Assembly (NCBI GenBank): GCA_005887925.1
Contig: VBLP01000203.1
Location: 1-33,122, forward strand
Origin: Deltaproteobacteria bacterium
GTDB lineage: Bacteria > Myxococcota_A > Polyangia > Haliangiales > Haliangiaceae
DNA length: 33,122 bases
Direction: 5' to 3'
Below are positions 9,687 to 33,122 of the stretch, piece by piece (position 1 is the first letter of the stretch; each line of letters opens with the position of its first letter). Under the pieces are notes generated by a model. That model saw nothing but the letters and a program-made list of their open reading frames with translations. It was not told the DNA's origin and did not search any database. The translations under genes were made by a program, and so were the position numbers.

Positions 9687-9698
9687 CGATGGCCGGCT

Positions 9699-11018
<1,320 letters not shown>

Positions 11019-11043
11019 TCGTGGGTGCAGAGAGTGCCAGCGA

Positions 11044-12249: not shown

Positions 12250-12263
12250 ACGCGTCTTACTAT
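12236..12263 (+). promoter_or_regulatory. Possible sigma-70-type promoter before the hybrid kinase gene
   Basis: TTGTGC-N16-TACTAT is the only AT-containing patch around and lies about 12 nt before ATG 12275. It overlaps the 3' end of the upstream kinase gene. Weak; the gene may simply be co-transcribed. Confidence 0.22.
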
Positions 12264-12274
12264 ATCGGGACCTG

Positions 12275-13390
12275 ATGGTGGAACGGCGGCATCACGTCGT
12301 GCTGGTGATCGACGACAACGCGTCGAACCGCGCGCTCGCCCAGGCCACGCTCGAGGACGAGGGCTACCAGGTGGTGCTCGCGGCGACCGGCGAGGACGGC
12401 GTGGCGGTGTTCCTGTCCACCGCGCCCGACTGCGTGCTGCTCGATGTCCAGATGCCGGGGATGGACGGCGTCGCGGTCTGCAAGCGCATCCGCGAGGTAC
12501 CCGGCGGCGGCGACGTGCCGATCGTGTTCCTGACCGCGCAGCGCGACGTCGAGACCTTCGACCGCGCGCGCCAGGCCGGCGGCGACGACTTCCTGACCAA
12601 GCCGTTCCGCCCCGACGAGCTGGTGCTACGGATCGAGGCAGCGATGAAGCTGCGGCGGGTCTCGCTCGAGCGCAGCGAGGCCTTCGAGCTGATCCGGCGC
12701 CAGCGCGACGACGTCATGCGGCTGCAGCTGCAGCGCGAGCAGCTGATGGCATTCCTGGTCCACGACCTCAAGAATCCGGTCCACGCGATCAAGCTCAACA
12801 GCGAGCTGATCGCGCGCGACCGCGCCGCCTCGCCGCGCAGCCTGACCGCCGCGGCCGGCATCCGGTCGGACTGCGAGGCCCTGCAGCGCATGATCATGAA
12901 CCTGCTCGATCTGAGCAAGGCCGACGAGGGCCGTCTGGTGCTGACGCGCCAGCCGGTCGATCTCGCGGCGCTCGCCAGCGAGATCGCCACCAGCATGGCG
13001 GAGCGGGCGCGGACCGCCGAGGTCGAGCTCGTCGTCGAGGTGGCGCCGCGGACGATCCAGGGCGACCACGAGCTGCTGCGCCGCGTGCTCGAGAACCTGG
13101 TCGACAACGCGATCCGCCACGCGCCGGCCGAGTCGCATGTCCTCATCGCCGGCATCGATCGCGGTGCCGACATCGAGCTGCGCGTCGCCGACACCGGTCC
13201 GGGCGTGCCCCCCGAGCTGCGCGAGCGCGTATTCGAGCGCTTCGTCCAGGGCGAGTCGCGATCGCGCGGCGGCCGCGGCCTCGGCCTCGCCTTCTGCAAG
13301 CTCGCCGTCGAGGCCCACGGCGGCGCGATCTGGATCGAGGATGCCAATCCCGGCGCGGTGTTCTGCGTCCGCTTCTCGGCCGCGGCGTAG
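12275..13390 (+). CDS. Receiver-histidine kinase hybrid
   Basis: A 371-aa protein. The N-terminal receiver ([14 protein letters not shown], phosphoacceptor D57 in [14 protein letters not shown] in FLTKPF) is followed by a coiled linker and a kinase with H-box [21 protein letters not shown]-box [17 protein letters not shown] and [19 protein letters not shown]. No sensor or membrane domain is present, so it is likely to take phosphate or signal from another component. It begins 25 bp after the globin kinase. ATG 12275 is used (the next codon is GTG); the track's 11891 start is a shadow. It may add a branch to the oxygen-sensing pathway, by inference from position. Confidence 0.9.
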
Positions 13391-16523: not shown

Positions 16524-16537
16524 GTGGGGCACGCTGG

Positions 16538-17179
16538 CTAGTGGTGCTGGGACCGCAGCTGGGCCGCGGCCTCGAGGTCGTGCGCTGCGCGGCGCTGAAG
16601 CTCGGCGACGAGCGCGGGATCGCGGATCACGATCGAGACGGTAACACCGCCCTCCTCGCCGCGCGCGTCGAGCGCGATGCCGGGCAGATCGAGCGGGCAG
16701 TCCTCCATCCCCGACGGCGCCATCATCATCGCGGCGCGGTGACACTTCATCCGGGCCATCAGCTGATCGGCCGGGCCGGCCTCGGGCGCGAGGTACATGA
16801 TGACGCCCGTGGTGGTGTTCCAGCCGCCGATCCCGTAGGCCTCGAGCGGCGAGATCTGGGCCTCGCTCGCCGAGATGTCGCGGCACGCCTCGTCGTACTG
16901 GGCGTGGATCTCGGCGGCCCTGGCGCGGTGGGCGTCGGCGATCCGGTCGTGCTCGCCGGCGGTGTCCCACGAGCGATACCACGGGATCGCGACTGGCCGG
17001 AGATCGCCGGGCGCCGCCGGGCGCGTGTCCGGCCAGGTCTCGCGCTCGCGCGCCATCGCATCGTGCTGGTGCGCGACGTCGAGGTGCTCGTTCGCGCGCA
17101 GCCCGCGCGGTCCGCCCTTGGGCTCGGTCATGGGGGTGGTCGCGCAGCCGACCAGAAGCGTGGCGATGGCGAGACGCAT
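16538..17179 (-). CDS. Predicted lipoprotein of unknown function
   Basis: A 213-aa protein. It has a short signal peptide with a lipobox (MRLAIATLLVGC-ATT), so it is likely anchored in a membrane facing the periplasm. The mature part is rich in His, Met and acidic residues (HLDVAHQHDAMARERETW; MARMKCHRAAMMMAPSGMEDC), which might bind metal; this is only suggestive. The C-terminal helix ends in QHH. I do not recognise the family. ATG 17179 is supported by the lipobox and by a sigma-54 -12 element exactly 14 nt upstream. It is the first gene of an operon with the Pat-type acetyltransferase. Confidence 0.75.
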   Translation of the reverse strand: MRLAIATLLVGCATTPMTEPKGGPRGLRANEHLDVAHQHDAMARERETWPDTRPAAPGDLRPVAIPWYRSWDTAGEHDRIADAHRARAAEIHAQYDEACRDISASEAQISPLEAYGIGGWNTTTGVIMYLAPEAGPADQLMARMKCHRAAMMMAPSGMEDCPLDLPGIALDARGEEGGVTVSIVIRDPALVAELQRRAAHDLEAAAQLRSQHH

Positions 17180-17190
17180 GACCGGTCGGG

Positions 17191-17207
17191 GAGCACGCAG
17201 CGTGCCC
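17191..17207 (-). promoter_or_regulatory. Sigma-54 promoter of the lipoprotein-pat operon
   Basis: On the minus strand GGGCAC-GCTGC-GTGCTC, one mismatch to TGGCAC and one to TTGCT. GC to ATG 17179 is 14 nt; predicted start 17181. Confidence 0.6.
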
Positions 17208-17246
17208 GCGCGATCTACGGGTCTTCGCGGTGGCGCAGTCCGCCAA

Positions 17247-17293
17247 CGCGCAAGGACTGCCGTGCAGTGGCCTCCCCCCGCAGATCTTGCGCG
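17247..17293. promoter_or_regulatory. UAS pair shared by divergent promoters
   Basis: CGCGCA-AGGAC-TGCCGT (17247-17263) and CCCGCA-GATCT-TGCGCG (17277-17293), centres 30 bp apart. They are -74 and -104 from the lipoprotein start, the same as at hsp20, and -138/-168 from the USP start on the other side. Confidence 0.58.
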
Positions 17294-17396
17294 GGCGGGA
17301 AACCTGCCGAGCCGCCGCGGTGGCTGACGAAAGCGAGGATCCGCGGAATCTGACGTGCGGCAGGGGGACGTTGCTGCCAAGTCCCGGGTGGGCACC

Positions 17397-17413
17397 TGGC
17401 ACAGACGTTGCGA
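17397..17413 (+). promoter_or_regulatory. Sigma-54 promoter of the USP gene, near-consensus
   Basis: TGGCAC-AGACG-TTGCGA, the best match in the window. GC to ATG 17425 is 14 nt, so a leader of about 2 nt is predicted. Confidence 0.75.
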
Positions 17414-17424
17414 CAGCCGACGAC

Positions 17425-18009
17425 ATGAGCAGCACAAACTCCCAGGTCGTCGTCGGCTACGACTTCAGCCACAGCGGAACGGCAGCGCTGCATCGCGCGA
17501 TCGCTCTCGCGATCCGGGCACCGTTTCATGTCCTGCACTTCGCCTGCATCGTCGAGCGGCACGCCCCGCTGCCGGGCCACCGCCACCGCGGGCCGGTCGA
17601 CTACGCGTACACCGAGCAGCTGCAGCTGGAGCTGACCGACATGGTCACCCAGGAGCTGCGCGGCGCGGGCATCGACCCGGCGGGCCGGATCCACTTCTTC
17701 GTGCACGTCCGGATCGGCAAGCCGGCCGAGGAGCTGCTCGTGCTGGCGCGCGAGGTCGGCGCCGATCTGATCATCGTCGGCAGCAAGGGCCTCACCGGGG
17801 TCGAGCGGCTGGTCCTGGGCTCGGTGTCCGAGCGCGTCGTGCGCGAGGCGGGTTGCACCGTCGAGGTCGCGCGGCCCAAGTCCTATCCGTACGTCGAGCT
17901 CGCCGACATCGTCGAGGTCGAGCCGCACCTGACCTACGTGCCGCCGCATCGCTACTCCTACGAGGACCACCGCGTCGAGATGCGGCCGGCCGAGTGGCCG
18001 CTGTACTGA
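17425..18009 (+). CDS. Universal stress protein with C-terminal extension
   Basis: A 194-aa USP starting MSSTNSQVVVGYDFSHSGTA. The ATP-binding signature is IIVGSKGLTGVERLVLGSVS. After the normal end (CTVEVARPK, about residue 153) there is an extra 40-residue tail rich in Tyr, His and acidic residues (PHLTYVPPHRYSYEDHRVEM), not usual in UspA; it may serve binding or dimerisation. ATG 17425 replaces the track's 17230, whose extra 65 codons lie over the promoter and enhancers. It is the third USP of the island and faces away from the lipoprotein operon, with shared enhancer DNA between. Confidence 0.93.
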   Translation: MSSTNSQVVVGYDFSHSGTAALHRAIALAIRAPFHVLHFACIVERHAPLPGHRHRGPVDYAYTEQLQLELTDMVTQELRGAGIDPAGRIHFFVHVRIGKPAEELLVLAREVGADLIIVGSKGLTGVERLVLGSVSERVVREAGCTVEVARPKSYPYVELADIVEVEPHLTYVPPHRYSYEDHRVEMRPAEWPLY

Positions 18010-18267: not shown

Positions 18268-18702
18268 TCACCGCAGGTCGCGGGTCCGGGTGCGGATCAC
18301 GTCGTCGCGCAGGGTCAGCGGGCTGAGGAACGTGCGTTCCTCGGCTGCCATGTGCGCATCGAGCTCGTCGGCGAGCTCGGTGATGCGCTCGGCGACCTCG
18401 GCCTGGCTGCCGCACAGAAGCGCCCAGAACGCGGCGTGCTCGGCGACGTGCTCCTCGAGCATGCGATCGACCATCAGCGAGCCCCACGCGGCCGGACCGT
18501 GCAGGAGCTCGGCGACGATCGCGGTCTCGTCGCGGTTGTGCACGGCGACCTCGTCGCGGAGCTCGGCGAGCGCGGCGTCGAGCTCGGGAGTGACGGCTTC
18601 GCCGGCGTGGAGTGCGTGTGAGAGCCGGATGCAGATGTCGAGCTGCTCGCGGATCCGATCGTGCTGGGCAAGCAGGAGCGCACGCGCCTGTTGTGCATTC
18701 AT
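18268..18702 (-). CDS. Hemerythrin-like (HHE) protein
   Basis: A 144-aa four-helix protein with the diiron ligands in order: H14 (AQHDRI), HNRDE (H-x3-E), MLEEHVAEHAAF (H-x3-H), and ELDAHMAAEE (H-x4-E). There is no signal peptide, so it is cytoplasmic. Hemerythrins bind O2 reversibly or act in NO and iron redox stress. ATG 18702 overlaps the TGA of the 27-haem cytochrome gene, so it can be coupled to that operon. It also has its own sigma-54 site (GC 15 nt before ATG) and a UAS pair inside that gene. It can therefore be made either with the cytochromes or independently under stress. Confidence 0.92.
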   Translation of the reverse strand: MNAQQARALLLAQHDRIREQLDICIRLSHALHAGEAVTPELDAALAELRDEVAVHNRDETAIVAELLHGPAAWGSLMVDRMLEEHVAEHAAFWALLCGSQAEVAERITELADELDAHMAAEERTFLSPLTLRDDVIRTRTRDLR

Positions 18703-20525
18703 ATCCCGAGGTCTTCGCAATCCGCGGGCCGGCGAACCGCGCTGTTGGCCGGCGATTTCGCGCACTCGCTGCGTTCCGCGGAGCTGTGGCGCACACGCTG
18801 CGGAAAACTAGGACGCCTGGAGCCGCCGAACGGATGGCACGCGCCGCAGCGAACGGCGCTGGGCTCGTGGTTGACCTGGGCCTGGTGGCAGCGCAGGCAG
18901 GTCGCGCGATCGTCGCCGGGGGCCGGCTCGTGCGCGCCGTGGCAGCTGTTGCAGGTGGCGTGACCGGCGACGCGGTGCAGGCCGGGGCGCTGCTCGGCGG
19001 GATGGCAGGTCGCGCAGGCCGGCGGTGCGGCCTGGCCCTGCGGGCCGTGCGGACGGTGGCAGCTGACGCAGTCGAGGCGCTTGCCGTGGCCCTGGCTGGC
19101 CTTGTCGGTGTGGCAGGTCGCGCAGGTCTTCTCGGGGCGGCGTGCGCCGCTGTGCGGCTCGTGGCAGGTCGCGCATTGCGTGTGGCCGCTCGGCGCCGAC
19201 GCCGCCTCGGCGGCATGACAGGTCGCGCAGGCGGCCTGGGCCCGGGGCTGATGCGGACCGGCGGTGTGGCAGTCGGCGCAGGCGGTGTGGCCCTTGCGGA
19301 CGACCTGCGCTTTCTGGGCGTGGCACGTCGCGCAGCTCGGCGGCGGCCTGGCCGGCTCGTGGGCGGCGCTCGCGTGGCACTGCGTGCAGGTCGCATGGCC
19401 GGTGGACGCGGTGGTCGCCGACTCGCGGCCGTGGCACCTGGCGCACAGCGCGGGCTCGAGCTTGGGCTTGCCGGCGTGCGGCGCGTGACAGTCGAGGCAC
19501 TTGGCCGTCGCGTGGTGCGGCTTGTCGTGACAGGTGACGCACGCGACCGCGAGCTGGCCGGTCGGCTGGGCGTGCGGCGGATGGCAGCCGGCGCAGGCCG
19601 CGGTGCCGTTGCCGTGCGCGGTCCGGGCCTCGTCGCGGATCGGCGCGGCGCCGACTGTAGTCACCGCGGACCTGATCGGCGGCGGGTGGCTGACACGCTG
19701 CACGTGGCAGCCGGTGCACGGTTTGGCGGCGGCGCCCTCGTGCTGGGCGTGACAGCTGATGCAGCGGGTGTGCTTGGCCGGCGCGATCACGTGCTGCTTG
19801 GTGTGGCAGCTCGTGCACGCCATGGTCTGGGCGGCGTCGAAGGCGTGCGGCTTGTGGCAGCCGGTGCACGCGTTGTGGCCGACGGTGATCGCGCGCGCGT
19901 CGACGCGGATCTTGCCGCGCTGCTGGGCGTGGCAGGTCGCGCAGCCGGTGTCGGCGGCGGCGTTGACCTCGTGCATCTGGTGGCAGTCGAGGCAGCTGCG
20001 CGCGCCGGCGTGGTGGTTCTGCTCGTCGGCGTGGCAGCTCGCGCACGGCCTGGGATCGAGCGACGGCGTCGCGTGAGCGCGGTGGCAGTCGCCGCACGTC
20101 TGATCGCTGTGCGCGCCGACCGCAGCGTGATTGCCCTGCGGCTCGGTGTGGCAGCGCATGCAGTTGCTCGGAGCGACCGCGGGATCCTTGCCGAAGCCGT
20201 GGCAGTCCTGGCAGGCGGGCGAGCGCTGGCCGCCGAGCGGATCGACGGGGTGGAGCGCCGCCCGGACCGCCGGGTGGCACTTCTGGCACAGCTCGAGCGG
20301 CGGCGTCGAGAAGCCGGCGTCGCCGTGGCACTCGCGGCAGGCCACGCCGCGCTTGAGGACGTGGGCGGTGTGACCGGCGCTGTCGCGCACGTCGCGCCAC
20401 ACCACCGGGACCTGCGCGGGCGAGGCATGGCGCTCGCCGGCGCCGGAGCAGCCCGTGGACCAGGCGACCGCCGCGATCGCGCATGCGACCGCCGCGCCGA
20501 GCGCGCCGACGATGACGCGCCTCAT
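18699..20525 (-). CDS. 27-haem c-type cytochrome lipoprotein
   Basis: A 608-aa protein with 27 CxxCH motifs by count (CRECH first, CGACH last), nearly one per 20 residues. The N-terminus MRRVIVGALGAAVACAIAAV...STGC has a lipobox, so it is likely a periplasmic or outer-membrane lipoprotein, possibly surface-exposed, and a long electron wire. The domains repeat as C-x-x-C-H-x-P/A-H, as in NrfB/DmsE- and MtrA-related chains. ATG 20525 is right after the upstream gene's stop (ATGA overlap). The last 40 residues after CHPFGG are not cytochrome-like; that DNA holds the hemerythrin promoter and enhancers, so the tail looks like read-through of regulatory sequence. The function in extracellular or periplasmic electron transfer is inference. 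Confidence 0.93.
   Translation of the reverse strand: MRRVIVGALGAAVACAIAAVAWSTGCSGAGERHASPAQVPVVWRDVRDSAGHTAHVLKRGVACRECHGDAGFSTPPLELCQKCHPAVRAALHPVDPLGGQRSPACQDCHGFGKDPAVAPSNCMRCHTEPQGNHAAVGAHSDQTCGDCHRAHATPSLDPRPCASCHADEQNHHAGARSCLDCHQMHEVNAAADTGCATCHAQQRGKIRVDARAITVGHNACTGCHKPHAFDAAQTMACTSCHTKQHVIAPAKHTRCISCHAQHEGAAAKPCTGCHVQRVSHPPPIRSAVTTVGAAPIRDEARTAHGNGTAACAGCHPPHAQPTGQLAVACVTCHDKPHHATAKCLDCHAPHAGKPKLEPALCARCHGRESATTASTGHATCTQCHASAAHEPARPPPSCATCHAQKAQVVRKGHTACADCHTAGPHQPRAQAACATCHAAEAASAPSGHTQCATCHEPHSGARRPEKTCATCHTDKASQGHGKRLDCVSCHRPHGPQGQAAPPACATCHPAEQRPGLHRVAGHATCNSCHGAHEPAPGDDRATCLRCHQAQVNHEPSAVRCGACHPFGGSRRPSFPQRVRHSSAERSECAKSPANSAVRRPADCEDLGI
18715..18731 (-). promoter_or_regulatory. 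Sigma-54 promoter of the hemerythrin gene
   Basis: On the minus strand CGGCCC-GCGGA-TTGCGA. GC to ATG 18702 is 15 nt; predicted start 18705. It lies within the 3' end of the cytochrome ORF. Confidence 0.58.
18759..18804 (-). promoter_or_regulatory. UAS pair for hemerythrin, inside the cytochrome ORF
   Basis: In plus-strand reading CGCGCA-CTCGC-TGCGTT (18759-18775) and GGCGCA-CACGC-TGCGGA (18788-18804), centres 29 bp apart, at -62 and -91 from the predicted start. The same geometry occurs at the 6145 and 9699 genes. Confidence 0.58.
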
Positions 20526-21559
20526 CGCGTCCCCACGGGGTGGCACATCCGGCACGGCATCGCGGTCAGCGGCTGCCGGCTCGACCAGCCGGGTGGATGC
20601 GGATTGCCGCCGACGCCGCCGACGGCGTGGCACTGCACGCACAGGCTCTCGCCGGCGCCGCCGTGACAGCCGGCGCACGCGGCGGGATCGCGGCGGGCCT
20701 CGCGGCCGTGCAGGTTGTCGCTCGCGGTCAGCCCGACCCAGCCGGCCGGGTGCGGATTGCCGCGCGATGCGCCGGCGACGCCGCGCGCGGTGTGGCAGGC
20801 GACGCAGCGATCGGGCGCGTGGCAGGTGGTGCAGGCGCCGGGCTCGGCGCGCGCCTCGAGGCTGTGGCGCGACAGGAACCCCGCGCGGTGCACGCTCGCG
20901 GCGAACGGATCGTTGAACCGGCGGGTCGCGGGCAGCGCCGGCGCGGTCACGCCGTGGCAGCCGGCGCAGTACGACGGCTTGTGGCAGCTCTCGCAGACCT
21001 CGCCCGACGAGGGCGCGCGCGCGCCGTGCTCGCGCAGCCAGTCGCCGTCGTGCGCGAGGTGGGTCGCGGGCAGCGTCGCCTGCTCGGCGAGGCCCTTGTG
21101 GCAGGCCTCGCACTTGCGCGCGTCGCGCGCGGCGTCGTCGGCGTGGCACTTGAAGCAGGTCGCCATCGCCGGCCGCATGTGGTCATCGCCGTCGGCGACG
21201 CCGGTGTGGCAGCGCATGCAGTTGCCCTTGGTGCCGTCCTGGTGCCTGGCGTGGCTGAAGACCAGGTGATCGCGCGCCTCGGACAGCTGGGCGATCGCGC
21301 CCGGCGCGACGTGGCAGCTCTGGCACGACCGGCTGTCGTGCGGCTTGGTGTGGCAGGTCGTGCAGCTGTCGTCGGTCGGCAGGTGCAGCGCCGGCGAGCC
21401 GTCCTGGATCGTCGGGTGGCAGCGCATGCACGACACGCCGGCGACGGCGTGGGCGCGGTGCGGGAACGAGCGCGGGCCGGAGCGCGTCAAGCCGAGCACG
21501 CCGGCGCACGCGACCAGGCCGCACAGCGCGATGCTCGTGGTGATGCGGCGCAGCGTCAT
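20522..21559 (-). CDS. 13-haem c-type cytochrome lipoprotein
   Basis: A 345-aa protein with 13 CxxCH motifs (CMRCH, CTTCH, CQSCH ... CRMCH). The signal MTLRRITTSIALCGLVACAG has a lipobox-like end, so it is probably lipidated. It has extra His between motifs (FPHRAHAV, FSHARHQ, GNPHPAGW twice) that can serve as distal haem ligands. It overlaps both neighbours by ATGA, placing it between the barrel protein and the 27-haem protein. In porin-cytochrome conduits a periplasmic decahaem-type protein sits inside the porin and passes electrons to a larger outer cytochrome; this trio fits that pattern, though I cannot show homology to MtrA. Confidence 0.9.
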   Translation of the reverse strand: MTLRRITTSIALCGLVACAGVLGLTRSGPRSFPHRAHAVAGVSCMRCHPTIQDGSPALHLPTDDSCTTCHTKPHDSRSCQSCHVAPGAIAQLSEARDHLVFSHARHQDGTKGNCMRCHTGVADGDDHMRPAMATCFKCHADDAARDARKCEACHKGLAEQATLPATHLAHDGDWLREHGARAPSSGEVCESCHKPSYCAGCHGVTAPALPATRRFNDPFAASVHRAGFLSRHSLEARAEPGACTTCHAPDRCVACHTARGVAGASRGNPHPAGWVGLTASDNLHGREARRDPAACAGCHGGAGESLCVQCHAVGGVGGNPHPPGWSSRQPLTAMPCRMCHPVGTR

Positions 21560-22743
21560 GGTGTCCCCCAGCGCCGGCTGAGCTGGAACAGCACATCGAC
21601 GCGGCTGCGGTACTCGGGAGATGCGCTGGCCTCGACGGCGATCGCCGACTGCCAGTCGCCGCGGTCCCAGCTGAGCGCGCCGAGCGCCCACGGCCACAGC
21701 GTGCCTCGGCCGCGCGGCTCGTCGGGCCGCACCAGCTCGAGCTCGGTCGACGCCACCAGCCGGTGCGACAGCGCGATCCGCGCCGCGGCCCGCGCGCCGG
21801 TCCACGCCTCGCCGGCGACGCCGCTGCGCCGCAGCTCGGCCGAGATCGCGCTGGCGCCGCGGTCGTCGAGCTTGAGCCGCGCGCGGCCGACCAGCTCGGG
21901 GGAGATGTCGGCGTCGACCCGGCGGGCCCCGGCGTCGGCGATGACGTCGAGGCGCGGCGCCGCCGCCCAGGTGATCACGGCCCCGGCACGCTGCGCCGGC
22001 ACGTCGCCGATCACCGAGAACAGCGTGGTCGCCGGCAAGAGGTGAGACGCGGCGCGGTGGCTGGCGTAGAGCTCAGCGCGCACGTGCTCGCTGCGGTGGC
22101 TCGCGGTCAGCGCGACCTCGGCGAGCCCGGGGTTGGCGACGTCGTAGGCGATGCGCGCCCCGAGGTCGTCGCGGCGGCCGAGCGCCATGCCGGCGTCGGC
22201 GGCGAGCTCCTCGGTGACGAGCTGGCCGTCGTCGCGGCGCTGCTCGTAGGCGATGCCGGCGGAGCCCCAGTCGCCGAACCGGCGCGACACGCGGCTCGCG
22301 GCCACCCAGCCCAGCGCGCGATCCATGGTCAGCCCCGGCATCACCGGCACGCCGGCGGCGGCCTCGACGACGAAGCGCTGCGGCAGCTGGAGCCGGGCCG
22401 AGCCGCCATCGAGGTGCTCGGGGCGCAGCGCGCCGAGCGCGACGACGAACCGGCCGAGCCGCGCCGCGGCCATCCCGCCCGGTGTGTGGGCGTCGATCGC
22501 GATCACCAGCACGTCGCCGTGCGAGCTGTCGCCCGGCGTGCCCGGCAGCGCGGCCCCGCCGGCGAGCCACACGACGGCCTCGGCGGACAGCCCGGGCTGC
22601 GCGGCGCCGCTGGCGTCGAGCACGAGCAGGCCGGCGGGCGACGCGGTGGTCGCGAGCGCGTCGGCGCGCAGGCGCAGCGGATCGGCCGCCGCCGCATGCG
22701 CGACCAGCGCGAGCGCGAGCGCGAGCAGCGGCAGCGACTTCAT
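21556..22743 (-). CDS. Predicted outer-membrane beta-barrel protein of a porin-cytochrome unit
   Basis: A 395-aa protein with a clear signal peptide (MKSLPLLALALALVAHAAA-ADP). After an N-terminal part of about 130 residues, alternating amphipathic strands dominate (DWGSAGIAYEQR, ARIAYDVANPG, AEVALTASHRS, HVRAELYASHR ... SRVDVLFQLSRRW). It ends in an aromatic-containing strand, as expected of a barrel of about 14 or more strands. No haem motif is present. It is placed between a small membrane protein and two multihaem lipoproteins with 4-nt overlaps, so it likely forms the conduit's porin. This rests on fold and context, not on a recognised family. Confidence 0.72.
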   Translation of the reverse strand: MKSLPLLALALALVAHAAAADPLRLRADALATTASPAGLLVLDASGAAQPGLSAEAVVWLAGGAALPGTPGDSSHGDVLVIAIDAHTPGGMAAARLGRFVVALGALRPEHLDGGSARLQLPQRFVVEAAAGVPVMPGLTMDRALGWVAASRVSRRFGDWGSAGIAYEQRRDDGQLVTEELAADAGMALGRRDDLGARIAYDVANPGLAEVALTASHRSEHVRAELYASHRAASHLLPATTLFSVIGDVPAQRAGAVITWAAAPRLDVIADAGARRVDADISPELVGRARLKLDDRGASAISAELRRSGVAGEAWTGARAAARIALSHRLVASTELELVRPDEPRGRGTLWPWALGALSWDRGDWQSAIAVEASASPEYRSRVDVLFQLSRRWGTP

Positions 22744-23096
22744 GGCGAGATCTCCCGCGGTGCGTCGTCGCGCGGTGTCCGGGTACCGGACGGGCCGTTC
22801 TGCGGAGCGAGGCCGAGCAAGGAGTCCCCGGCGGCGAGCTCGGTGCTCGTCATCTTCTTGCCCCTGGCGCGCTGCTTCCTGACCTGGTCGATCAGGACCG
22901 AGATGCAGAACAGCGCGAACGCCAGGATGCCGAGGCCCTCGCCGAGCGACATCGCGAGGATGACCGGCATCGGCGTCGGCTGCAGCATCGACCACACCAT
23001 GAGCGCGAGCGCGATCAGCGTGAGCACGGCGGACAGCTTGAGCAGCGTGGGCACCCGCGGTGGGCGCGTCACGAGCGTCTTGAGGCGGCGGATCAT
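22740..23096 (-). CDS. Small membrane protein, two TM segments
   Basis: 118 aa. Two hydrophobic segments, VPTLLKLSAVLTLIALALMV (about 15-34) and VILAMSLGEGLGILAFALFC (about 45-64), lie at the N-terminus and are followed by a soluble tail of about 50 residues with K/R and P. No haem or metal motif is seen. It overlaps NapC-like and barrel genes by ATGA. It may be a quinol-side or assembly subunit of the cytochrome complex; family not recognised. Confidence 0.75.
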   Translation of the reverse strand: MIRRLKTLVTRPPRVPTLLKLSAVLTLIALALMVWSMLQPTPMPVILAMSLGEGLGILAFALFCISVLIDQVRKQRARGKKMTSTELAAGDSLLGLAPQNGPSGTRTPRDDAPREISP

Positions 23097-23764
23097 GGCG
23101 AGGCTCCTTCCGCCCCGGCCGCGGCTTGCTCGGCCTTGAGGTGCGCGATCGCGGCGAACGGGTGGGCCGGTCCGTGGCAGCCCTGGCTGGCGCAGCTCAC
23201 CGAACCATCGCGCACCTGGTCGATCAGGCTCTTGTGGTCGCCGACCCGGCGCCACCCCGGCGCCTCGGTCGAGTGGCAGCGCATGCAGGTCGCGTTGGGG
23301 AACGGCTGGCGGATGTGGATCCTGGGCAGCGCCTCCTCGAGGCTGAGCTGGTGGAAGTGCAGCGCGTACTCGTAGACGTGCCGCATCCCGCCGATCTTGG
23401 TCGTGACCGTGCCGAACATCCCGTAGTCGGCGTGGCACGTGTAGCAGTTCTCCTCGCCGAACGCCTGGTTGCGGCCGTGGCGCGCGGCGAGCGACGTGCT
23501 GCCCGGGTTGGACGAGTCGGCGCCGAACGGCGTCATCACGTGGCACGAGCTGCAGAACGTCCGGGTCTTGGTCGCCTCGTAGCCGGCGATGCTGCCGTTG
23601 GCCGCGGTGCCGAGCGGCAGGATGCCGATCGCGACCAGCAGCACGAGCTTGGTGCCGCGGGTCAGCGCCGGCCGCGCGATCAGGAACCAGATCAGCAGGA
23701 CGGTGGCCAGCCCGGCGCAGATCAGCGCGAACAGGACGAACGGATTCGGGTGCTCAGTGGACAT
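23093..23764 (-). CDS. NapC/NirT-family membrane tetrahaem cytochrome
   Basis: A 223-aa protein. An N-terminal pair of hydrophobic segments (VLFALICAGLATVLLIWFLI; LVLLVAIGILPLG) precedes haem motifs CSSCH, CYTCH, CMRCH and a C-x4-C-H motif (CASQGCH). Family members oxidise menaquinol and feed electrons to periplasmic multihaem partners, so this is the likely entry point for electrons from the quinone pool into the conduit. The downstream and upstream genes overlap (4 and 11 nt), so the order 12-haem, NapC-like, small TM, barrel, 13-haem, 27-haem is one operon. The C-terminal tail is Ala/Glu-rich. Confidence 0.9.
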   Translation of the reverse strand: MSTEHPNPFVLFALICAGLATVLLIWFLIARPALTRGTKLVLLVAIGILPLGTAANGSIAGYEATKTRTFCSSCHVMTPFGADSSNPGSTSLAARHGRNQAFGEENCYTCHADYGMFGTVTTKIGGMRHVYEYALHFHQLSLEEALPRIHIRQPFPNATCMRCHSTEAPGWRRVGDHKSLIDQVRDGSVSCASQGCHGPAHPFAAIAHLKAEQAAAGAEGASP

Positions 23765-24971
23765 CGACCACTCCGTTGATGTGCGTGCTGCTGAGGACGC
23801 CGTCGGGACCCGGCGTGAGGATGATCATCCCGGTCGCGTCGATCGTCCGGGGGTGACACCCGGTGCAGCTGGCCAGCGTCATGGCCGGGCTGTGGCTCGG
23901 TGTCGTCGGCGGGACGCCGTGGCAGCTGCCGCACACCAGGCCGCCGGTCTGGGTCCACACCGGGCGGCCTGCGAGGTGGCACAGCGCGGTCGCGCAGGTC
24001 GCGGTGCTGCGGTCCCAGCGCAGCTCGGTGTTGACCTCGGCGGGCGGCGGCGAGTCGATGTGGCCCGCGTCGCCGATCTGGGTCGGCACCTGGTGGCAGG
24101 CGCTGCACGGTACCGGACCGCGCAGCCGCGACGGTGCCTCGATGTGCGCACGGTGAGCGCCGACGCCGATCGCGGTGATGAGCGTGTTGCCCGACAGATC
24201 GCCGGGCGGCGCGGGCGACGTGGCGTCGCCGTGGCAGCCAGAGCAGCCCGGGACGCGGCCGACCTGGACGGTGCCGTCGATGTGCGGCGCGCCCGGCGGA
24301 TGGCAGGTCTCGCAGTGATCCTGCGCGTGGCTCGGCGGTGGGGCGCCGTGGCAGCGATCGCAGGCGCCGGCGGGCGCCGGGTCGTCCCACCGCGGCTCGG
24401 TCGCGGTGCCGCCGGCGGCGTGCAGCACGTCGCCATGGCAGTACACGTTGCTGCACCGGCCGTCGTGGAACAGGGGGGGGCCGGGGCGATCACCCGGGTC
24501 GAGCGTGAATCCCGCGCGCGTGCCGAACGTGACCCGGGGCGGGGTCTGGATCGCGACGCCGCCGCTCAGGATGTGGCCCTCTGCGTTCCAGGTCGCGGGA
24601 ACGACATGGCATTCGCCGCACGCGAGCCCGGCGACCTCGCGGTGGACGACGTGCGCGTTGCTCGTCGGGCCAGCCCCGTGACAGGTGATGCACGCGGTCG
24701 GACCTGCGCTGTGGCAGGTCAGGCATGACACCTTCGCGGTGCCACCGGTGAAGTCGTCGCCATGGCAGCCGGCGCAGACCGAGAAGTTCCAGTTACGGCG
24801 CACCAGCTCGCGGACGTGGAAATCTTCACTCTTGGAGTCGAGGATCCCGGCAGGGTGGACCGACACGGTGGTCGTGCCGCCATCGGGCTGCGGCCGCACA
24901 TCCGAGCACGCGCCCAGCGCGAGCGCGGCCCACAGGCCGGCGGCGGCACATGGGGCGATGACCCACCTCAC
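23754..24971 (-). CDS. 12-haem CxxxxCH/CxxCH cytochrome lipoprotein
   Basis: A 405-aa protein with ten CxxCH motifs and two C-x4-C-H motifs (CSNVYCH, CATALCH), the mix known from Geobacter-type CxxxxCH/CxxCH cytochromes. Lipobox LALGACSD after the signal MRWVIAPCAAAGLWAAL (start GTG 24971). Segments such as GCHGDATSPAPPGD recur. It is probably an outer-membrane or surface cytochrome. It opens the multihaem operon and starts 51 bp after ccoS, so read-through from the cbb3 operon is possible. No convincing promoter is seen in the gap (only a weak GG-N10-GC near 25003). Confidence 0.9.
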   Translation of the reverse strand: MRWVIAPCAAAGLWAALALGACSDVRPQPDGGTTTVSVHPAGILDSKSEDFHVRELVRRNWNFSVCAGCHGDDFTGGTAKVSCLTCHSAGPTACITCHGAGPTSNAHVVHREVAGLACGECHVVPATWNAEGHILSGGVAIQTPPRVTFGTRAGFTLDPGDRPGPPLFHDGRCSNVYCHGDVLHAAGGTATEPRWDDPAPAGACDRCHGAPPPSHAQDHCETCHPPGAPHIDGTVQVGRVPGCSGCHGDATSPAPPGDLSGNTLITAIGVGAHRAHIEAPSRLRGPVPCSACHQVPTQIGDAGHIDSPPPAEVNTELRWDRSTATCATALCHLAGRPVWTQTGGLVCGSCHGVPPTTPSHSPAMTLASCTGCHPRTIDATGMIILTPGPDGVLSSTHINGVVDVH

Positions 24972-25022
24972 AGCATTCCGTGGGTGAAGGCCATTGGCGA
25001 AGGCTGCATGACGTCCCTCTAC

Positions 25023-25250
25023 TCACGAGCTGTGCCAGCCCACAGGCGGTGCTGCGGTGGGCTCCAGCGCAGCATCTGCGGGGGACCCCCGGGCGTCTGC
25101 AAGGATTGCGCGATCGTCGTCGAACAGGATCCGGCGCGGCGGGGTGTCGACGTCATCGAGCTGGCCGGACCGGACGGTCCACGCAAAGGCTGCGACCGCG
25201 ACGCCGGCGAACACCAGGGCGAGCGGGAGGATGAGATAGAGGATGGTCAT
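25023..25250 (-). CDS. ccoS: cbb3 oxidase assembly protein CcoS
   Basis: A 75-aa protein. One N-terminal TM segment ([21 protein letters not shown]) is followed by the CcoS-typical [20 protein letters not shown]. It is needed for copper and haem insertion into CcoN. ATG 25250 overlaps the TGA of ccoI by 4 nt. The C-terminal tail after the conserved part is longer than in small CcoS proteins ([17 protein letters not shown]). Confidence 0.95.
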
Positions 25251-27667
25251 CGGGGGTCCTCGGCGCGGAACGCCCGGGAGCGCAGCGAGCTGGCGAGCAC
25301 CGTCAGCGAGCTGAGGGGCATGACCGCCGCGGCGATCAGCGGGTGGATCCAGCCGAGCACCGCGAGGCTGCCGGCGAGCAGGTTGTAGGCGAGCGAGAAC
25401 TTGAGGTTGCGCCGGATCGTCGCCAGCGTCGCCTGCGCGCCGGCGCAGGTCGCGGCGATCGCGGTGATGGACGGCGAGCGCAGGTAGACGTCGGCGGCCT
25501 CGATCGCGATCTCGGCGGCACCCGACACCGCGATGCCGGCGCTGGCGGCGGCCATCGCCGCGGCATCGTTGACACCGTCGCCGACCATCGCGACCGGGCC
25601 GTGCTCCCGCGCCGCCGTGACCGCGGCGACCTTGTCCTCGGGCGAGACCCGGCCGTGGCAGTGCGCCCACGGGATGCCGAGCGTGCCGCCGACCCGGCGG
25701 ACGACGCGCTCGTCGTCTCCGGACAGGAGCTGCACGTCCCAGCCCAGCCGGACCAGCGCGTCGAGCGCCTCGCGCGCGTCGTCGCGGATCGGATCGGCGA
25801 GCCCGGCGACCGCGACCATCGTGCCGTCGCACGCGATCACGATCGGGGTCTCGCCGCGATCGGCGAGCTCCGCGATCCAGCCGTCGATGATGGGGCGCGA
25901 CGGGCAGCGCTGGCGCACCCAGGCCGGCGCGCCGACCACGACGCGGTGATGGCCGACGGTCGCGGAGACGCCGCGGCCGAGCTCCTCGGTGATGTCGGTC
26001 GCCACCCCGGCGGGCCGGGCGTGGGCGCAGAGCGCGCGGGCGATCGGGTGGTTGCTGCCGGATTCGGCCGCCGCGGCCAGCGCGGTCGCGTCGACATCGC
26101 CGTACCAGCTGACCACCGCGAGCTTGCCCGCGGTCAACGTCCCGGTCTTGTCGACGAACAGCGTGCCCGGCGTCGCGAGCCGCTCGAGCGCATCGGCGCC
26201 CTTGATCAGCACGCCGCGCCGCGCCGCGCGGCCGAGCGCGACGGTGACCGCGAGCGGCGTCGCCAGCGCGAGCGCGCACGGACAGGTCACGATCAGGAGC
26301 GCCATCGCATGCTCGGCGCCGGCGGCCACCGAGTGGCCCCAGATCACCGACCAGCCGATCAGCGTCAGCGCGGCGACCGCCGACACCACGGCGACGAACC
26401 GGCCCGCGATCCGGTCGACCAGCCGCTCGATCGGCGACTTGACCGACAGCTGTGCGATGCTCGCGACCAGCCTGCCGACGCGGGTGACCTCGCCGACCGC
26501 CGTCGCGCAGACCGCGATCGGGGCGGCGACATTGACCGTGCCGGCGTGGACGTGCGCACCGGGCGCGACATCGATCGGCCGCGACTCGCCGGTCAGGACG
26601 CCGAGATCGATCGCCGAGCGCCCGGCCACGACGTCGCCGTCGACCGGGATGATCTCGCCGACCAGGACGCGCACGACGTCGCCCGGCACGATCGCCTCGA
26701 TCGGCACGTCGGTGGCCGCGCCGTCGGGCCGCTCCGGGCCGAGACGGTGGGCACGGCTCGGCGTCAGCGACAGCAAGAGCTCGGCCGCGGTCGAGGCCCG
26801 GCGCTGGTGACGCAGCACGATCCAGCGCGCGGTCAGGAGCAGGAACACCAGCATCGCGAGCGAGTCGAAGTAGATCTCGCCGACGCCGCGGATCACGTTG
26901 GCGCTGCCCCAGAGCAGCCCGGCCAGGATGCCGATCGACAGCGGCAGATCGAGGTGGAGCCGGCGCGCGCGCAGCGCACCCAGCGCGGTGCGGAAGAACG
27001 GCGTCGCGGCGAAGCCGAGGGCGGGCACCGCGACGCACAGCGACGCCCAGCGGAAGAAGCCGGTGTCGGCGCGCGACATGCCGCCGAACAGCCCGGCGTA
27101 CAGCGCGATCGCCAGCAGCATGAGGTTGCCGGCCGCGGCGCCCGCGACGCCGAGCTTGACGAGCAGCGCGCGATCCTCGCGGCGGCGCAGCGCGTCGCGC
27201 TCGAGGCCGCGGTAGGGGTGCGGCGGGTGGCCGATGCGGTCGAGGTAGCGCGCGATCTGGGCGAGCGAGGTGACGGCGGGATCCCACGCCACGTCGGCGC
27301 GGCTGCGCCCGAGATCGACGCGCACGTCGCTGACCCCGGCGAGGCAGCGCGGCGCGCTCTCGACCAGCCACACGCACGCGGTGCAGCGCAGGTCCTCGAG
27401 GTAGAGGGCCGCGCGCGCCGTGCCGCCGGGGCCGGCCTGCACGTGCAGGCGCTGAAACGCCGGATCATCGAGCTCGGTGTAGCCGTGATCGGTCGTCCGC
27501 GCCGGCTCGGCGGTCTCGCGCAGCGCGTAGAACCGCTCGAGGCCGTTGGCGGCGATCGCGCCGTACACGACCTCGCATCCGGAACAGCAGAAGGCCGATG
27601 CCCGGCCGGCCGGCACCGGCAGGCTGCAGTGGCGGCACGGCGCGGGGGCAACCGCGGCGGCGGTCAT
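25247..27667 (-). CDS. ccoI: Cu+-exporting P1B-type ATPase CcoI (FixI/CopA2)
   Basis: An 806-aa P-type ATPase. The N-terminal Cys cluster (CRHCSLPVP...[10 protein letters not shown]) and the HMA-like domain with CTACVW are typical of CcoI. It has membrane helices, the CPC metal site ([13 protein letters not shown]), the phosphorylation site DKTGTLT and the hinge [10 protein letters not shown]. It delivers copper to the periplasm for cbb3 assembly. ATG 27667 overlaps the upstream TauE-like gene by ATGA. The track ORF's longer N-terminus (to 28363) is a shadow of that gene. Confidence 0.96.
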
Positions 27668-28350
27668 GGCGCGCTCCGGTGGCAGTGCGGCGCCGTCGCG
27701 CCCGTCGCGCCGGCATCGGCCCAGCGCCCGGCCAGCGTCGCGAGCCCGAGGACGATCAGGATGCCCGCCGAGATCACCGGCATGCGGCGCCGCATCGCAT
27801 CGAGCACGGCGCCGCCGAGCGCGAGCACGCCGGTCATCGCCGGCACGGTGCCGAGCCAGAACACCGCCATCACCAGCGCGCCGGCCACCGGGCTCGCTGT
27901 GCCGGCCGCCGAGACCACGAACGCCCACAGCCAGCCGCACGGCAAGAGGCCGGTCAGCACGCCGACGAGCCACGCCCGCCCGGCGGGGCGCCGGCCGCGG
28001 ATCTGGACCAGCCCGCGCTGGAACAGCGCGCCGCCGCTCGACTGGACCGTGATCCAGCCTGCCGCGACGGCGATCGCGCGCACGCCCCAGCCGACGATCG
28101 CACCGCCCGCGACGATCGCCGCGACATGCTGCACCGCCGCGAGGTGGCCCGCGACGTCGACCGCGCTGCCGACGAGGCCGGCGAGCGCGCCGAGCGCGCC
28201 GTACGTCGTCAGCCGCCCCAGCGCGTGGATCAGCGCGAGCCGCAGCGAGCGCGCGCCGCCGTGCAGCCCGACCAGCGGCCCGCACATCGCGACGCAGTGC
28301 AGGCTCCCCGCGAGGCTCGATCCGAGGATCGCGGCCCAGAGTGCGATCAT
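27664..28350 (-). CDS. Sulfite exporter TauE/SafE-like (DsbD_2-type) membrane protein
   Basis: A 228-aa polytopic protein. It starts MIALWAAILGSSLAGSLHCV, with the family motif GSLHCVAMCGP, and a second similar motif GLLPCGWLWAF, in the arrangement of cytochrome-biogenesis-related TauE/SafE proteins found in cbb3 operons, probably linked to copper handling. ATG 28350 fits an upstream GGGGGCT; the track start at 28485 adds residues from the gap. It overlaps ccoI by 4 nt. The 148 bp before it (28351-28498) show nothing further. Confidence 0.88.
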   Translation of the reverse strand: MIALWAAILGSSLAGSLHCVAMCGPLVGLHGGARSLRLALIHALGRLTTYGALGALAGLVGSAVDVAGHLAAVQHVAAIVAGGAIVGWGVRAIAVAAGWITVQSSGGALFQRGLVQIRGRRPAGRAWLVGVLTGLLPCGWLWAFVVSAAGTASPVAGALVMAVFWLGTVPAMTGVLALGGAVLDAMRRRMPVISAGILIVLGLATLAGRWADAGATGATAPHCHRSAP

Positions 28351-28498
28351 CGAGCCCCCACAACGCCAGACGACGCCCGGAGGGAGTCGACGGATCTCGT
28401 CTCGGTGCGACCGGGGAGCCACGAATGGTTCTGATGAGGAGCTTCCGGTGAGCGCGAAGCCCCTCTCGATCGACCCGTCGCCCACGGCACCGGTGTCA

Positions 28499-28948
28499 TC
28501 ATCTGGCCTCGACCGCGACGTGCTGGACGTAGTGCGCGCCGCCGCGATCGGCGGCGATGGTGAGGTCGTGCCAGCCGCGGCGCTCGCGGAGGTCGCCGCG
28601 ATAGTGGCCGCCGCCGGTGGTCGCGAGCTCGAGGTCGAGCAGCTCGCCGGCGTGCGCGCGCTGGTAGCCGGTGATGTGGACCCGCGCGCCCTCGATCGCC
28701 CGGCCGGCCGCGTCGGACACGGTCACGTCGACCGCGCCGGCCGCGATCGCGACCTCGGCGTGCCAGCCCAGCGCGCGGCTGGCCGACGCGCGGTCGAGCT
28801 CGTCGTCGTAGTGCGCGGCCCGGTCGTAGTACTGCGGGATCACCTGGGTGCCGCCGTCGTTGGCGACCACCGCGAGGATCACCATCGCGATGACGTTGCC
28901 GGCGAGCAGGCCGACGATCGCGATGATCCAGGTCACGCGCGGCGTCAT
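28499..28948 (-). CDS. ccoH: FixH/CcoH-family cbb3 assembly protein
   Basis: A 149-aa protein. One N-terminal TM helix (VTWIIAIVGLLAGNVIAMVIL) is followed by a periplasmic beta-sandwich domain (WHAEVAIAAGAVDVTVSDAAG ... HDLTIAADRGG), with the YYDRAAHYDDELD segment typical of FixH. It stabilises assembly of the oxidase. ATG 28948 overlaps the ccoG stop by ATGA. Confidence 0.92.
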   Translation of the reverse strand: MTPRVTWIIAIVGLLAGNVIAMVILAVVANDGGTQVIPQYYDRAAHYDDELDRASASRALGWHAEVAIAAGAVDVTVSDAAGRAIEGARVHITGYQRAHAGELLDLELATTGGGHYRGDLRERRGWHDLTIAADRGGAHYVQHVAVEAR

Positions 28949-30360
28949 CGCTCACCTCGCTCGCGGCCGCGGTCGTCGGCTTCGCCGCCGTCGGGGCCGA
29001 GCAGCGTCACGGTGACGATCCGCTCGAACTGCTGATCGTCGAAGATCCGCAGGTGGACGCGGCGCTCGCCGTGGTGGAACGTCGACGCCGCGGCCTCGAC
29101 GTAGAGCGGGATCGGCTGGGCGTGATGCGGCCGGATCTCCCACACCGCGAGCGGCGACTTGAGCACCGCGTCGGGCGAGCCGGCCAGCGAGATGACGTAG
29201 TGGCGAGGCTCGTCGCTCTCGTTCTCGATCTTGAGCTGGACCGCCGACGCGATCCGGCCGTCGGGCAGGGTCACGAAGCTCGGCCCGTCGTTGCGCAGCG
29301 CGGTCACCTCGGAGGTCGCGCGCGACGCCACCGCCCACACGAACAGCGAGCCGACGATCGCCAGCAGCGCCGGATACACCACCAGGCGCGGACGCAACAG
29401 CTTGCGCGGCACGCCGGCGAGCTGGTCCTGCGACGTGTAGCCGATCAGGTGGCGCGGCCGGTGCAGCTTGTCCATCACCGCGTCGCACGCGTCGATGCAC
29501 TGGGCGCAGCCGACGCACTCCATCTGCAGGCCGTCGCGGATGTCGATGCCGGTCGGGCACACCGCGACGCAGGCGCTGCAGTCGACGCAGTCACCGCGCG
29601 CGCCGGTCGCGACCGCGAGCTTCTTCGCCTTGGTCCGCGGCTCACCGCGCCGCGCGTCGTAGCCGACGATCAGCGACTGGCGATCGAGCAGCACCGACTG
29701 CAGCCGGCCGTACGGGCACGCCACGATGCAGGTCTGCTCGCGGAACCAGCCGAAGTTGGCGAGCATCAGCACGGTGACCAGCGCCACCACGCCGAACCCG
29801 CCGGTGTGCACCGCCGGCGACTCGAGCACCCAGACGCGCAGCCGGTCGACCCCGACGAAGTACGCGAGGAACACGTTGGCGATCGCGAACGCCAGCGCGG
29901 CGTAGATCGCCCACTTGATCAGCCGGCGCGGCGCGAACCTCGACAGCCGGGCCTGCTGCGCCGGCGTGCCCTCGAGCCAGCGCTCGATCGGCCGGAACAC
30001 GTGCTCGAGGTACACCGTGTGCGGACAGCCCCAGCCGCACCACACGCGGCCCAGCAGCGCCGTCAGCACGAACACCGCCAGCACGATGGTCAGGCCGAGC
30101 AGCAGCAGCAGGAAGCCGTTGCTCGGCCGGAACACCGCGCCGAACGCCGACAGCTCGCGCGTCACCAGGTCGATCAGCAGCGCGGGCCGGCCGCCGATGC
30201 GGACGAGCGGCAGCGCGACGAACAGCGCGATCAGCGCCCACGCCACGATCCGGCGGCGACGCAGGAACCGGCCGCGCGCCAGCTTGGGACGGATCCAGTT
30301 GCGCGTGCCGTCCTCGTTGAGGGTCGACAGGATGCGGTGGTGCGGCAGCGGCGGGGACAC
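28945..30360 (-). CDS. ccoG: CcoG, ferredoxin-type copper-reducing accessory protein
   Basis: A 471-aa membrane protein. Several TM helices and RVWCGWGCPHTVYLEHVFRP lead to two ferredoxin-like clusters, CVDCSACVAVCPTGIDIRDG and CVGCAQCIDAC, then a periplasmic IG-like C-terminal domain. CcoG family members help cbb3 assembly by reducing copper. The start is GTG 30360, because AGGAG lies 5-7 nt upstream; the track's 30885 start is a shadow of ccoP. Confidence 0.95.
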   Translation of the reverse strand: MSPPLPHHRILSTLNEDGTRNWIRPKLARGRFLRRRRIVAWALIALFVALPLVRIGGRPALLIDLVTRELSAFGAVFRPSNGFLLLLLGLTIVLAVFVLTALLGRVWCGWGCPHTVYLEHVFRPIERWLEGTPAQQARLSRFAPRRLIKWAIYAALAFAIANVFLAYFVGVDRLRVWVLESPAVHTGGFGVVALVTVLMLANFGWFREQTCIVACPYGRLQSVLLDRQSLIVGYDARRGEPRTKAKKLAVATGARGDCVDCSACVAVCPTGIDIRDGLQMECVGCAQCIDACDAVMDKLHRPRHLIGYTSQDQLAGVPRKLLRPRLVVYPALLAIVGSLFVWAVASRATSEVTALRNDGPSFVTLPDGRIASAVQLKIENESDEPRHYVISLAGSPDAVLKSPLAVWEIRPHHAQPIPLYVEAAASTFHHGERRVHLRIFDDQQFERIVTVTLLGPDGGEADDRGRERGER

Positions 30361-30386
30361 GATGGCTCCTTCGATGGATGCGGCGA

Positions 30387-31043
30387 TCAGGGCGCGAGCG
30401 CGGGCACCGACTTGCCCTGCGGCTCCTTGCCGGGGAGGTTCTTGCCGCGCAGCGACGACACGTAGGTCGCGACGGCGATGATCTCGGCCGGCTTCATCAC
30501 CTCGCCCCAGGCGATCATCGCGGTGCCCGGAGCGCCGCCGAGGATCGTCCCGTAGAGGTCCAGCCGCGTCGTGCCGTGGATCTGGTAGAGGTCGGTGAGG
30601 TTCGGCCCGATCTGGCCGCGGCCGTCGGCGGCGTGGCAGCCGATGCAGCGGCTGGTGAACACCTCGGCGCCGCGCGCGACGACATCGGGGTTCTGCACGC
30701 CCGCGGCGAGCATCTCCTCGGTGACGCTCGGCCCGCCGCCGCCCGGCCCACCCCTGTAGCCGGCCTGCCAGCCGGCGAGCGCGATCTGGTACTTCTCGGC
30801 CGGCGTCTTGCCCCAGCCCGCGATGTTGTAATAGGCGAAGTACAGGAACGCGACCACGAAGGTCGCGGCGAAGATCAGGTTCCACCAGCCGGGGAGCGGG
30901 TTGTCGTACTCGCGGATCCCGTCGTAGGCGTGATCCATCAGGCGCGCCTGATCCAGCGTGTCGTCGGCCCTGTCGTGGGCCGGGCTCGCATCGCGCGAAC
31001 CGACGACCGGGATGTCATCTGCAGTGGTGGCGTGCATCGTCAT
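30387..31043 (-). CDS. ccoP: cbb3 oxidase subunit CcoP, single-haem form
   Basis: A 218-aa protein. The N-terminal part (YDGIREYDNPLPGWWNLIFA, one TM helix, WGKTPAEKYQ) is the typical CcoP N domain. It is followed by only one cytochrome c domain (CIGCH; axial Met likely in EVMKPAEI). Most CcoP proteins carry two haems and are about 290-310 aa, so one domain is absent. The C-terminus ends in KSVPALAP with no sign of a frameshift in the next 26 bp. ATG 31043 overlaps the ccoQ stop. Confidence 0.93.
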   Translation of the reverse strand: MTMHATTADDIPVVGSRDASPAHDRADDTLDQARLMDHAYDGIREYDNPLPGWWNLIFAATFVVAFLYFAYYNIAGWGKTPAEKYQIALAGWQAGYRGGPGGGGPSVTEEMLAAGVQNPDVVARGAEVFTSRCIGCHAADGRGQIGPNLTDLYQIHGTTRLDLYGTILGGAPGTAMIAWGEVMKPAEIIAVATYVSSLRGKNLPGKEPQGKSVPALAP

Positions 31044-31227
31044 CGGGGTGCTCCCTGGGCATCGGCGTCATCGGCGAGTGGCAGCTGGGCGCAGGCGGCG
31101 TGCTCGGCGGCGCGGCGCCGTCCGCCATGCCGGATCAGCACGCCGGCGAACACCATCAGGAACAGGACCAGCGACAGCTCGGCGTACTGCACCGGCGTCA
31201 ACGCGGACACGAGCTCGGACAGGCGGA

Positions 31228-31231
<4 letters not shown>
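31040..31231 (-). CDS. ccoQ: cbb3 oxidase small subunit CcoQ
   Basis: A 63-aa one-TM protein (VIRLSELVSALTPVQYAELS then LVLFLMVFAGVLIRHG). GTG 31231 is chosen because AAGGAGG lies 6 nt upstream and it overlaps the ccoNO stop (GTGA). It is hidden inside a track ORF (31040-31915) that is otherwise a shadow. Confidence 0.9.

Positions 31232-33122
<1,891 letters not shown>

Follow-up and report, generated by a model that had tools for sequence, protein, structure and literature searches.

A gene cluster with 56 haem motifs in a myxobacterial genome, a candidate porin-cytochrome conduit for electrons across the envelope

Contig VBLP01000203.1 of assembly GCA_005887925.1, whose 33,122 nucleotides are the window analysed here, belongs to a myxobacterial metagenome-assembled genome (MAG) of 12.2 Mb in 778 contigs, with a G+C content of 72% and a completeness of 81%. 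It includes a cluster of six core genes encoding four cytochromes, a predicted outer-membrane β-barrel and a small membrane protein (SMP) (Table 1). Three of the cytochromes are named here H12, H13 and H27 after their haem motifs, and the fourth is a tetrahaem NapC/NrfH-like protein. The total of 56 motifs (27 + 13 + 4 + 12) consists of 53 CxxCH and three CX4CH and agrees exactly with the count given in a first-pass annotation made from the sequence alone; that annotation was also right in the number of cytochromes, but it set the NapC-like protein apart as an additional component when it is one of the four. The 53 CxxCH motifs of the six frames compare with a mean of 0.41 and a maximum of 2 in 200 dinucleotide shuffles, and the remainder of the window has 2. 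The short overlaps reported between the genes are 11 bases at the H12/NapC junction and 4-base ATGA overlaps at all later junctions through H27. Since the start of a hemerythrin-like gene is joined to the end of H27 by another ATGA overlap, the overlapping set amounts to seven genes, and the hemerythrin gene is probably the seventh gene of the transcript in this genome. Genes of this HHE type also adjoin the cluster in three other loci (L041, L044 and L050). A promoter and terminator scan of the locus was uninformative given the high G+C content.

Table 1. Location of the cluster and of the adjoining features in the window.
Feature	Coordinates	Strand	Characteristics
H12, 12-haem c-type cytochrome	23754..24971	-	405 aa; 10 CxxCH + 2 CX4CH; lipoprotein signal (LGAC); candidate surface/outer-membrane cytochrome
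NapC/NrfH-like 4-haem protein, predicted inner-membrane quinol-cytochrome oxidoreductase	23093..23764	-	223 aa; 3 CxxCH + 1 CX4CH; two transmembrane (TM)-like segments
SMP, small membrane protein	22740..23096	-	118 aa; two TM-like segments
Outer-membrane β-barrel, candidate porin sheath	21556..22743	-	395 aa; signal peptide; ~20 predicted strands
H13, 13-haem lipoprotein, candidate cytochrome inside the barrel	20522..21559	-	346 aa; 13 CxxCH
H27, 27-haem "peptide-minimised" cytochrome, proposed periplasm-spanning wire	18699..20525	-	27 CxxCH
Hemerythrin-like (HHE) protein	18268..18702	-	PF01814, E 2.8e-9
ccoS/H12 junction	24972..25022	-	Site of the ~720-aa decahaem gene in L042, L044 and other relatives
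cbb3 oxidase operon, head-to-tail upstream	25023..33009	-	ccoN/O fusion, P, G, H, DsbD-like, I, S

When the same gene order was sought elsewhere, as the first-pass annotation had proposed, it was found to recur. The barrel gene is present in 23 of the 35 genomes of the order that were scanned for it, and most of the 19 stretches fetched around it retain the order H12-NapC-SMP-barrel-H13-H27. A wider scan with one genome per species produced 58 loci, labelled nearly all as myxobacteria or Deltaproteobacteria (in the GTDB collection, relatives with a name are MAGs of Kofleriaceae and other Myxococcota); the single locus carrying an Actinomycetes label is probably a binning or label error. Presence was counted in the 43 loci of at least 12 kb, where the barrel and H13 are found in all 43, H27 in 41, and the NapC-like protein, SMP and H12 in 36 each; barrel, H13 and H27 occur together in 41. 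The haem motifs are invariant among orthologues. In loci of the Labilithrix and Nannocystis types NapC-SMP, and H12 too where it is seen, lie on the opposite strand beside barrel-H13-H27, and the association is therefore not just the inheritance of a gene order. In the short stretches fetched from more distant Myxococcota families there is an H12-barrel-H13 trio without H27, which suggests that the trio is the porin-cytochrome heart of the system and that H27 and NapC-SMP are its inner extension. Plasmid records searched with H13 as query gave zero matches.

The barrel named in the first-pass annotation is predicted to be an outer-membrane β-barrel and not a soluble protein. An AlphaFold2 model made with 20 orthologues has about 20 strands (predicted local distance difference test score, pLDDT, 75.9; predicted template modelling score, pTM, 0.73), and in a fold search all 50 of the PDB matches listed were outer-membrane β-barrels or complexes built on one. 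Comparison with solved structures by sequence, single or profile, gave no meaningful match. A lipobox is present in 68 of 77 H13 orthologues, and the N-terminal half of the protein is similar at the profile level to c7, QrcA and alternative complex III (ACIII) ActA multihaem cytochromes, weakly so in the case of the last two. The feature common to porin-cytochrome systems, a barrel gene adjoining a multihaem cytochrome gene, is thus found here in the form of an ATGA overlap, and the pair is present in 43 of 43 long loci; from this pairing we infer that H13 sits inside the barrel.

At the surface end of the cluster, H12 has a lipobox and matches the GSu CxxxxCH/CxxCH domain (TIGR01904, E 1e-15) and PF09698. 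Directly upstream of H12, about 16 close relatives have a gene coding for a decahaem protein of approximately 720 amino acids (H10) that belongs to the OmcA/MtrC family TIGR03507 (E 1e-107 to 1e-129, 360-431 bits with a cut-off of 209), and in which a lipobox is followed by a collagen-like GPAGP stretch. The window has no OmcA/MtrC decahaem gene, H12 being located about 50 bases after the end of ccoS (25023), and one relative (G006, locus L043) likewise has none beside H12. This absence could be due to a loss in the strain or to incompleteness elsewhere in the 81%-complete assembly. As the decahaem is found in relatives, the strongest evidence for a surface function is invisible from the window alone. 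The sole other OmcA/MtrC gene of the genome is split over two contig ends (C500:3549-5183 and C149:10636-11544; L063 and L064) and is probably a single gene broken by assembly; its flanks are unrelated and it has no linked porin. It was considered as a relocated copy of the operonic decahaem and rejected, as its identity to the operonic copies is 25-31%, while most of these share 35-76% identity with the copy of L042. At the ccoS/H12 junction, a 13-codon mini-ORF overlaps H12 by a terminal GTGA. It resembles the decahaem C-terminus (xHGxx-stop) but was rejected as a remnant for being too short.

The inner end of the cluster includes the NapC-like protein, which matches PF03264 (E 3.4e-9, score 37.1 with a gathering threshold of 24.1) and has the NapC/NirT domain, the N-terminal anchor and the CxxCHxM first haem motif (CSSCHVM) of this family. 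SMP, which has neither a histidine nor a haem motif and found no match in a family search, is always paired with the NapC-like gene. In four loci NapC-SMP is absent and a set of genes related to QrcA (E 1.4e-28), QrcB (E 4.9e-93), QrcC (E 1.6e-78) and an NrfD-type protein (E 1.3e-28) is found directly behind H27; the set is whole in three of the four, while the contig of L082 breaks off once QrcB has begun. As these matches are below the NCBI equivalog cut-offs, they are called Qrc-like only. Since the input module varies while H27 is constant, H27 most likely receives electrons from the quinone module, and the location of the Qrc-like genes directly behind H27 places it next to such a module. 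Elsewhere in the host genome, on contig C551 (L067:3414-10460, minus strand) an H27-like 24-haem gene precedes genes coding for a five-haem QrcA-like lipoprotein, a QrcB-like molybdopterin protein, a QrcC-like iron-sulfur protein and a QrcD-like region, with no barrel within the stretch read; its gene content marks it as a second putative wire, one of a large-haem protein together with a Qrc-like module.

The haem motifs of H27 are mostly spaced 17-18 residues apart, and the protein includes 34 further histidines, which are enough for bis-histidine ligation of all 27 haems. The first-pass annotation had described H27 as a lipoprotein unusually dense in haem. The density is indeed high (21.6 amino acids and 2.25 kDa per haem) but is at the edge of the range of 22-39 amino acids per haem published for PCC3 cytochromes (PMC5566968). 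As for its location, H27 of the window and of close relatives has a lipoprotein-type signal, while in 28 of 50 distinct orthologues the N-terminus is hydrophobic without a lipobox cysteine, and 12 of these 28 have no cleavage-like site either. With such an anchor left uncleaved, H27 would be retained at the inner membrane on its periplasmic side. In place of a surface lipoprotein, H27 looks like a membrane-tethered periplasmic bridge. Structural trends indicate that about 27 haems are needed to cross a periplasm of 200 Å (PMC7096707), and the PCC3 periplasmic cytochromes, with 21-27 haems, have been proposed to span it (PMC10734462, PMC5566968); H27 is accordingly predicted to have roughly the length needed to span the entire periplasm on its own. 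The H27 encoded in the window extends about 40 residues past the C-terminus shared by its orthologues (CHPFG...; positions 18699-18821), and this extension runs precisely up to the start codon of the hemerythrin gene, which suggests that a stop codon was lost or that the gene border was slightly rearranged.

Literature searches found no description of this gene set in these myxobacteria; a wastewater survey mentions multihaem cytochromes in some Myxococcota in general terms (PMC11495043). The likeness to the Geobacter Pcc and Sideroxydans PCC3 systems was judged from published descriptions. The cluster shares with Pcc (OmbB-OmaB-OmcB of Geobacter) the clustering of the genes, a 12-haem cytochrome (here a candidate for the outer membrane) and the size of the barrel (about 20 strands against a published 18-22), and H13 fits the 5-14 haems of the Pcc periplasmic cytochromes and, with its 346 amino acids, resembles those of the Anaeromyxobacter group IV Pcc (338-344 amino acids, 12-14 haems) (PMC4245776). 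Unlike Pcc, it includes the NapC-SMP module and the 27-haem protein and, in relatives, the OmcA/MtrC decahaem. With MtrCAB and CymA of Shewanella it has in common a barrel, a multihaem cytochrome as its putative insert, a NapC-family quinol oxidase and, in relatives, a TIGR03507 surface decahaem. It differs from them in the number of strands, below the 26 of the MtrB crystal structure (PMC7198977) and the approximately 26-28 expected of an MtrB, in the position of H13 outside the DmsE/MtrA family (18.2 bits against TIGR03508, with a cut-off of 192.2, and 13 haems where MtrA is a decahaem), in the lack of the decahaem in the window, and in the additional H27 and H12. PCC3, found in Sideroxydans, Leptothrix and others, likewise combines a barrel with a periplasmic multihaem cytochrome of 21-27 haems and few amino acids per haem (PMC5566968, PMC10734462), a description that H27 fits. 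The PCC3 inner-membrane protein, however, has about 300 amino acids, five TM segments and HX13H motifs, in contrast to the two-TM SMP and NapC-like protein found here, and the PCC3 description has no separate 13-haem barrel cytochrome corresponding to H13. The c7-type nanowire cytochromes GSU2210 and GSU1996 are also compact, monomeric and periplasmic, GSU2210 having the same 27 haems, but their reported context includes no porin, and the near-even spacing of H27 differs from their concatenated triheme c7 repeats. Likeness to QrcABCD and ACIII is confined to the alternative quinone module of four loci and the N-terminal half of H13, and the window operon has no Qrc module. By form (barrel size, H13 and H12) the cluster is closest to Pcc, with a PCC3-like giant periplasmic cytochrome, and the relatives, judging from their genes, appear to add an Mtr-type surface cytochrome to this Pcc-like form.

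We consider it likely that the cluster encodes a trans-envelope electron conduit of the porin-cytochrome type. The trans-outer-membrane conduit proposed in the first-pass annotation is supported by the barrel model, by the conserved gene order and by the operonic OmcA/MtrC decahaem of the relatives, and the proposal as a whole is partly borne out. The NapC-like tetrahaem protein, together with SMP, would exchange electrons with the inner-membrane quinol pool, oxidising quinol; the electrons would pass to H27, an N-terminally membrane-tethered periplasmic protein bridging to the outer membrane, and H13, in or under the barrel of about 20 strands, would conduct them through the outer membrane. 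H12, plus the decahaem in most relatives, would be the terminus at the outer surface. The flow is most likely outward, with an extracellular acceptor being respired at low oxygen, because the proteins involved belong to the NapC and OmcA/MtrC families, while the wire itself would be reversible.

Several observations weigh against such a conduit. The H13 model is of moderate quality (pTM 0.49), its fold search gave two weak matches to ACIII ActA and no solved structure at E<0.001, and the sequence match between H13 and MtrA is weak (E 0.018). The barrel is narrower than that of MtrB, which bears on the proposed fit of H13 inside it, and the decahaem is lacking in the window. In an alignment with NrfH, Lys123 and His129 of the NapC-like protein are invariant in 51 of 51 orthologues, but His129 occupies the position of NrfH Asp89, so that the Lys/Asp pair of the quinol site, the roles of which are taken from NrfH and CymA, is not found as such. 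This deviation from aspartate to histidine may tune the site.

More tentatively, it is possible that a single tethered H27 directly joins the quinone module to the porin-cytochrome as a continuous fixed haem wire without a soluble carrier, in a modular system found throughout the Myxococcota in which barrel-H13-H27 is constant and both ends are swapped, the input being NapC-SMP or a Qrc-like module and the surface terminus H12, the OmcA/MtrC decahaem or other multihaem cytochromes. Whether any bacterium crosses the periplasm by one fixed haem wire, as opposed to diffusing carriers, is an open question in the field, and the operon described here is a natural candidate of the predicted length, the topology of which is made testable by the anchor-like N-termini and the module swaps. 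Its distribution also suggests extracellular electron exchange in large uncultured, mostly environmental myxobacterial groups (Kofleriaceae, Labilithrix/Polyangiaceae and Nannocystaceae).

A conduit working mainly inward, from an extracellular donor such as Fe(II) or a partner cell through H12, H13 and H27 and on to quinone or to the cbb3 oxidase encoded next to the cluster, seems unlikely. A role in Fe(II) oxidation has been proposed for PCC3 and Mto systems that have periplasmic cytochromes of 21-27 haems (PMC5566968, PMC10734462), the module that can replace NapC-SMP is similar to the menaquinone reductase Qrc, and a cbb3 operon adjoins the cluster in the window as well as in L042, L044 and L049; on the other hand, NapC/NrfH relatives as a rule oxidise quinol, the cbb3 linkage is rare, and surface cytochromes of the OmcA/MtrC family are known best for outward reduction. 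It is quite improbable that the conduit is degraded in this strain, what remains after loss of the surface decahaem serving small soluble acceptors or decaying. The pattern of presence of H10, lacking in the window and in G006 and found in most relatives, agrees with such a loss, as does the divergence of the sole other OmcA/MtrC copy, but the six remaining genes are intact and translationally coupled with every haem motif kept, known MtrAB, Mto and Pcc clusters function without MtrC (PMC4245776), and H12 could serve as the surface terminus. A periplasmic electron store or redox buffer, with H27 and H13 as a capacitor and the barrel as an ordinary channel nearby, is very unlikely: GSU2210 of Geobacter sulfurreducens is a monomeric "nanowire" cytochrome of the periplasm with 27 haems (PMC10138318) and the host has its unlinked 24-haem gene beside Qrc-like genes, but barrel, H13 and H27 stay together in the long loci, other Myxococcota families have the trio without H27, and in relatives the surface decahaem shares the operon.

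With regard to the surroundings of the conduit cluster, the cbb3 operon reported head-to-tail upstream is real, but the suggestion that both uses of the quinol pool are set together does not hold in general, as only 3-4 other loci have ccoI or ccoN/O nearby. Surroundings with genes for universal stress proteins (Usp), sigma-54 regulators or histidine kinases are commoner than cbb3 linkage; at least one Usp, sigma-54 response regulator, histidine kinase or cbb3 gene is found in 19 of the 43 long loci, a figure that has no background rate for comparison. The window also holds genes for a protoglobin-domain histidine kinase, a sigma-54 regulator, Usp, HSP20 and hemerythrin, neighbours that are in keeping with control by low oxygen. 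The sigma-54 response regulator and the protoglobin-domain and hybrid histidine kinases lie at 9606-13390, and their orthologues are found right behind H27 in L042; these genes are candidates for an oxygen- or nitric oxide-sensing control of the cluster.

The host genome is very rich in multihaem proteins. Contig C20 (L060:1718-4761) includes a gene for a predicted barrel-like protein of about 500 amino acids beside a second 13-haem protein, 31-38% identical to H13, without H27. Dense groups of cytochrome genes are also found on contig C580 (L066:6970-12954), where ORFs with 23, 10 and 7 haems are accompanied by a separate protein rich in CX4CH, and on contig C562 (L065:7131-11810), which encodes 14- and 15-haem proteins. 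In the window itself, an AAA ATPase encoded at 822-2222 matches BREX BrxC/BrxD (PF10923, E 1.5e-39), although no further BREX gene was identified in its surroundings, and a large ORF at 13848-17435, beside universal stress protein genes, is a fusion of GNAT acetyltransferase and acetyl-CoA synthetase (ADP-forming) domains.

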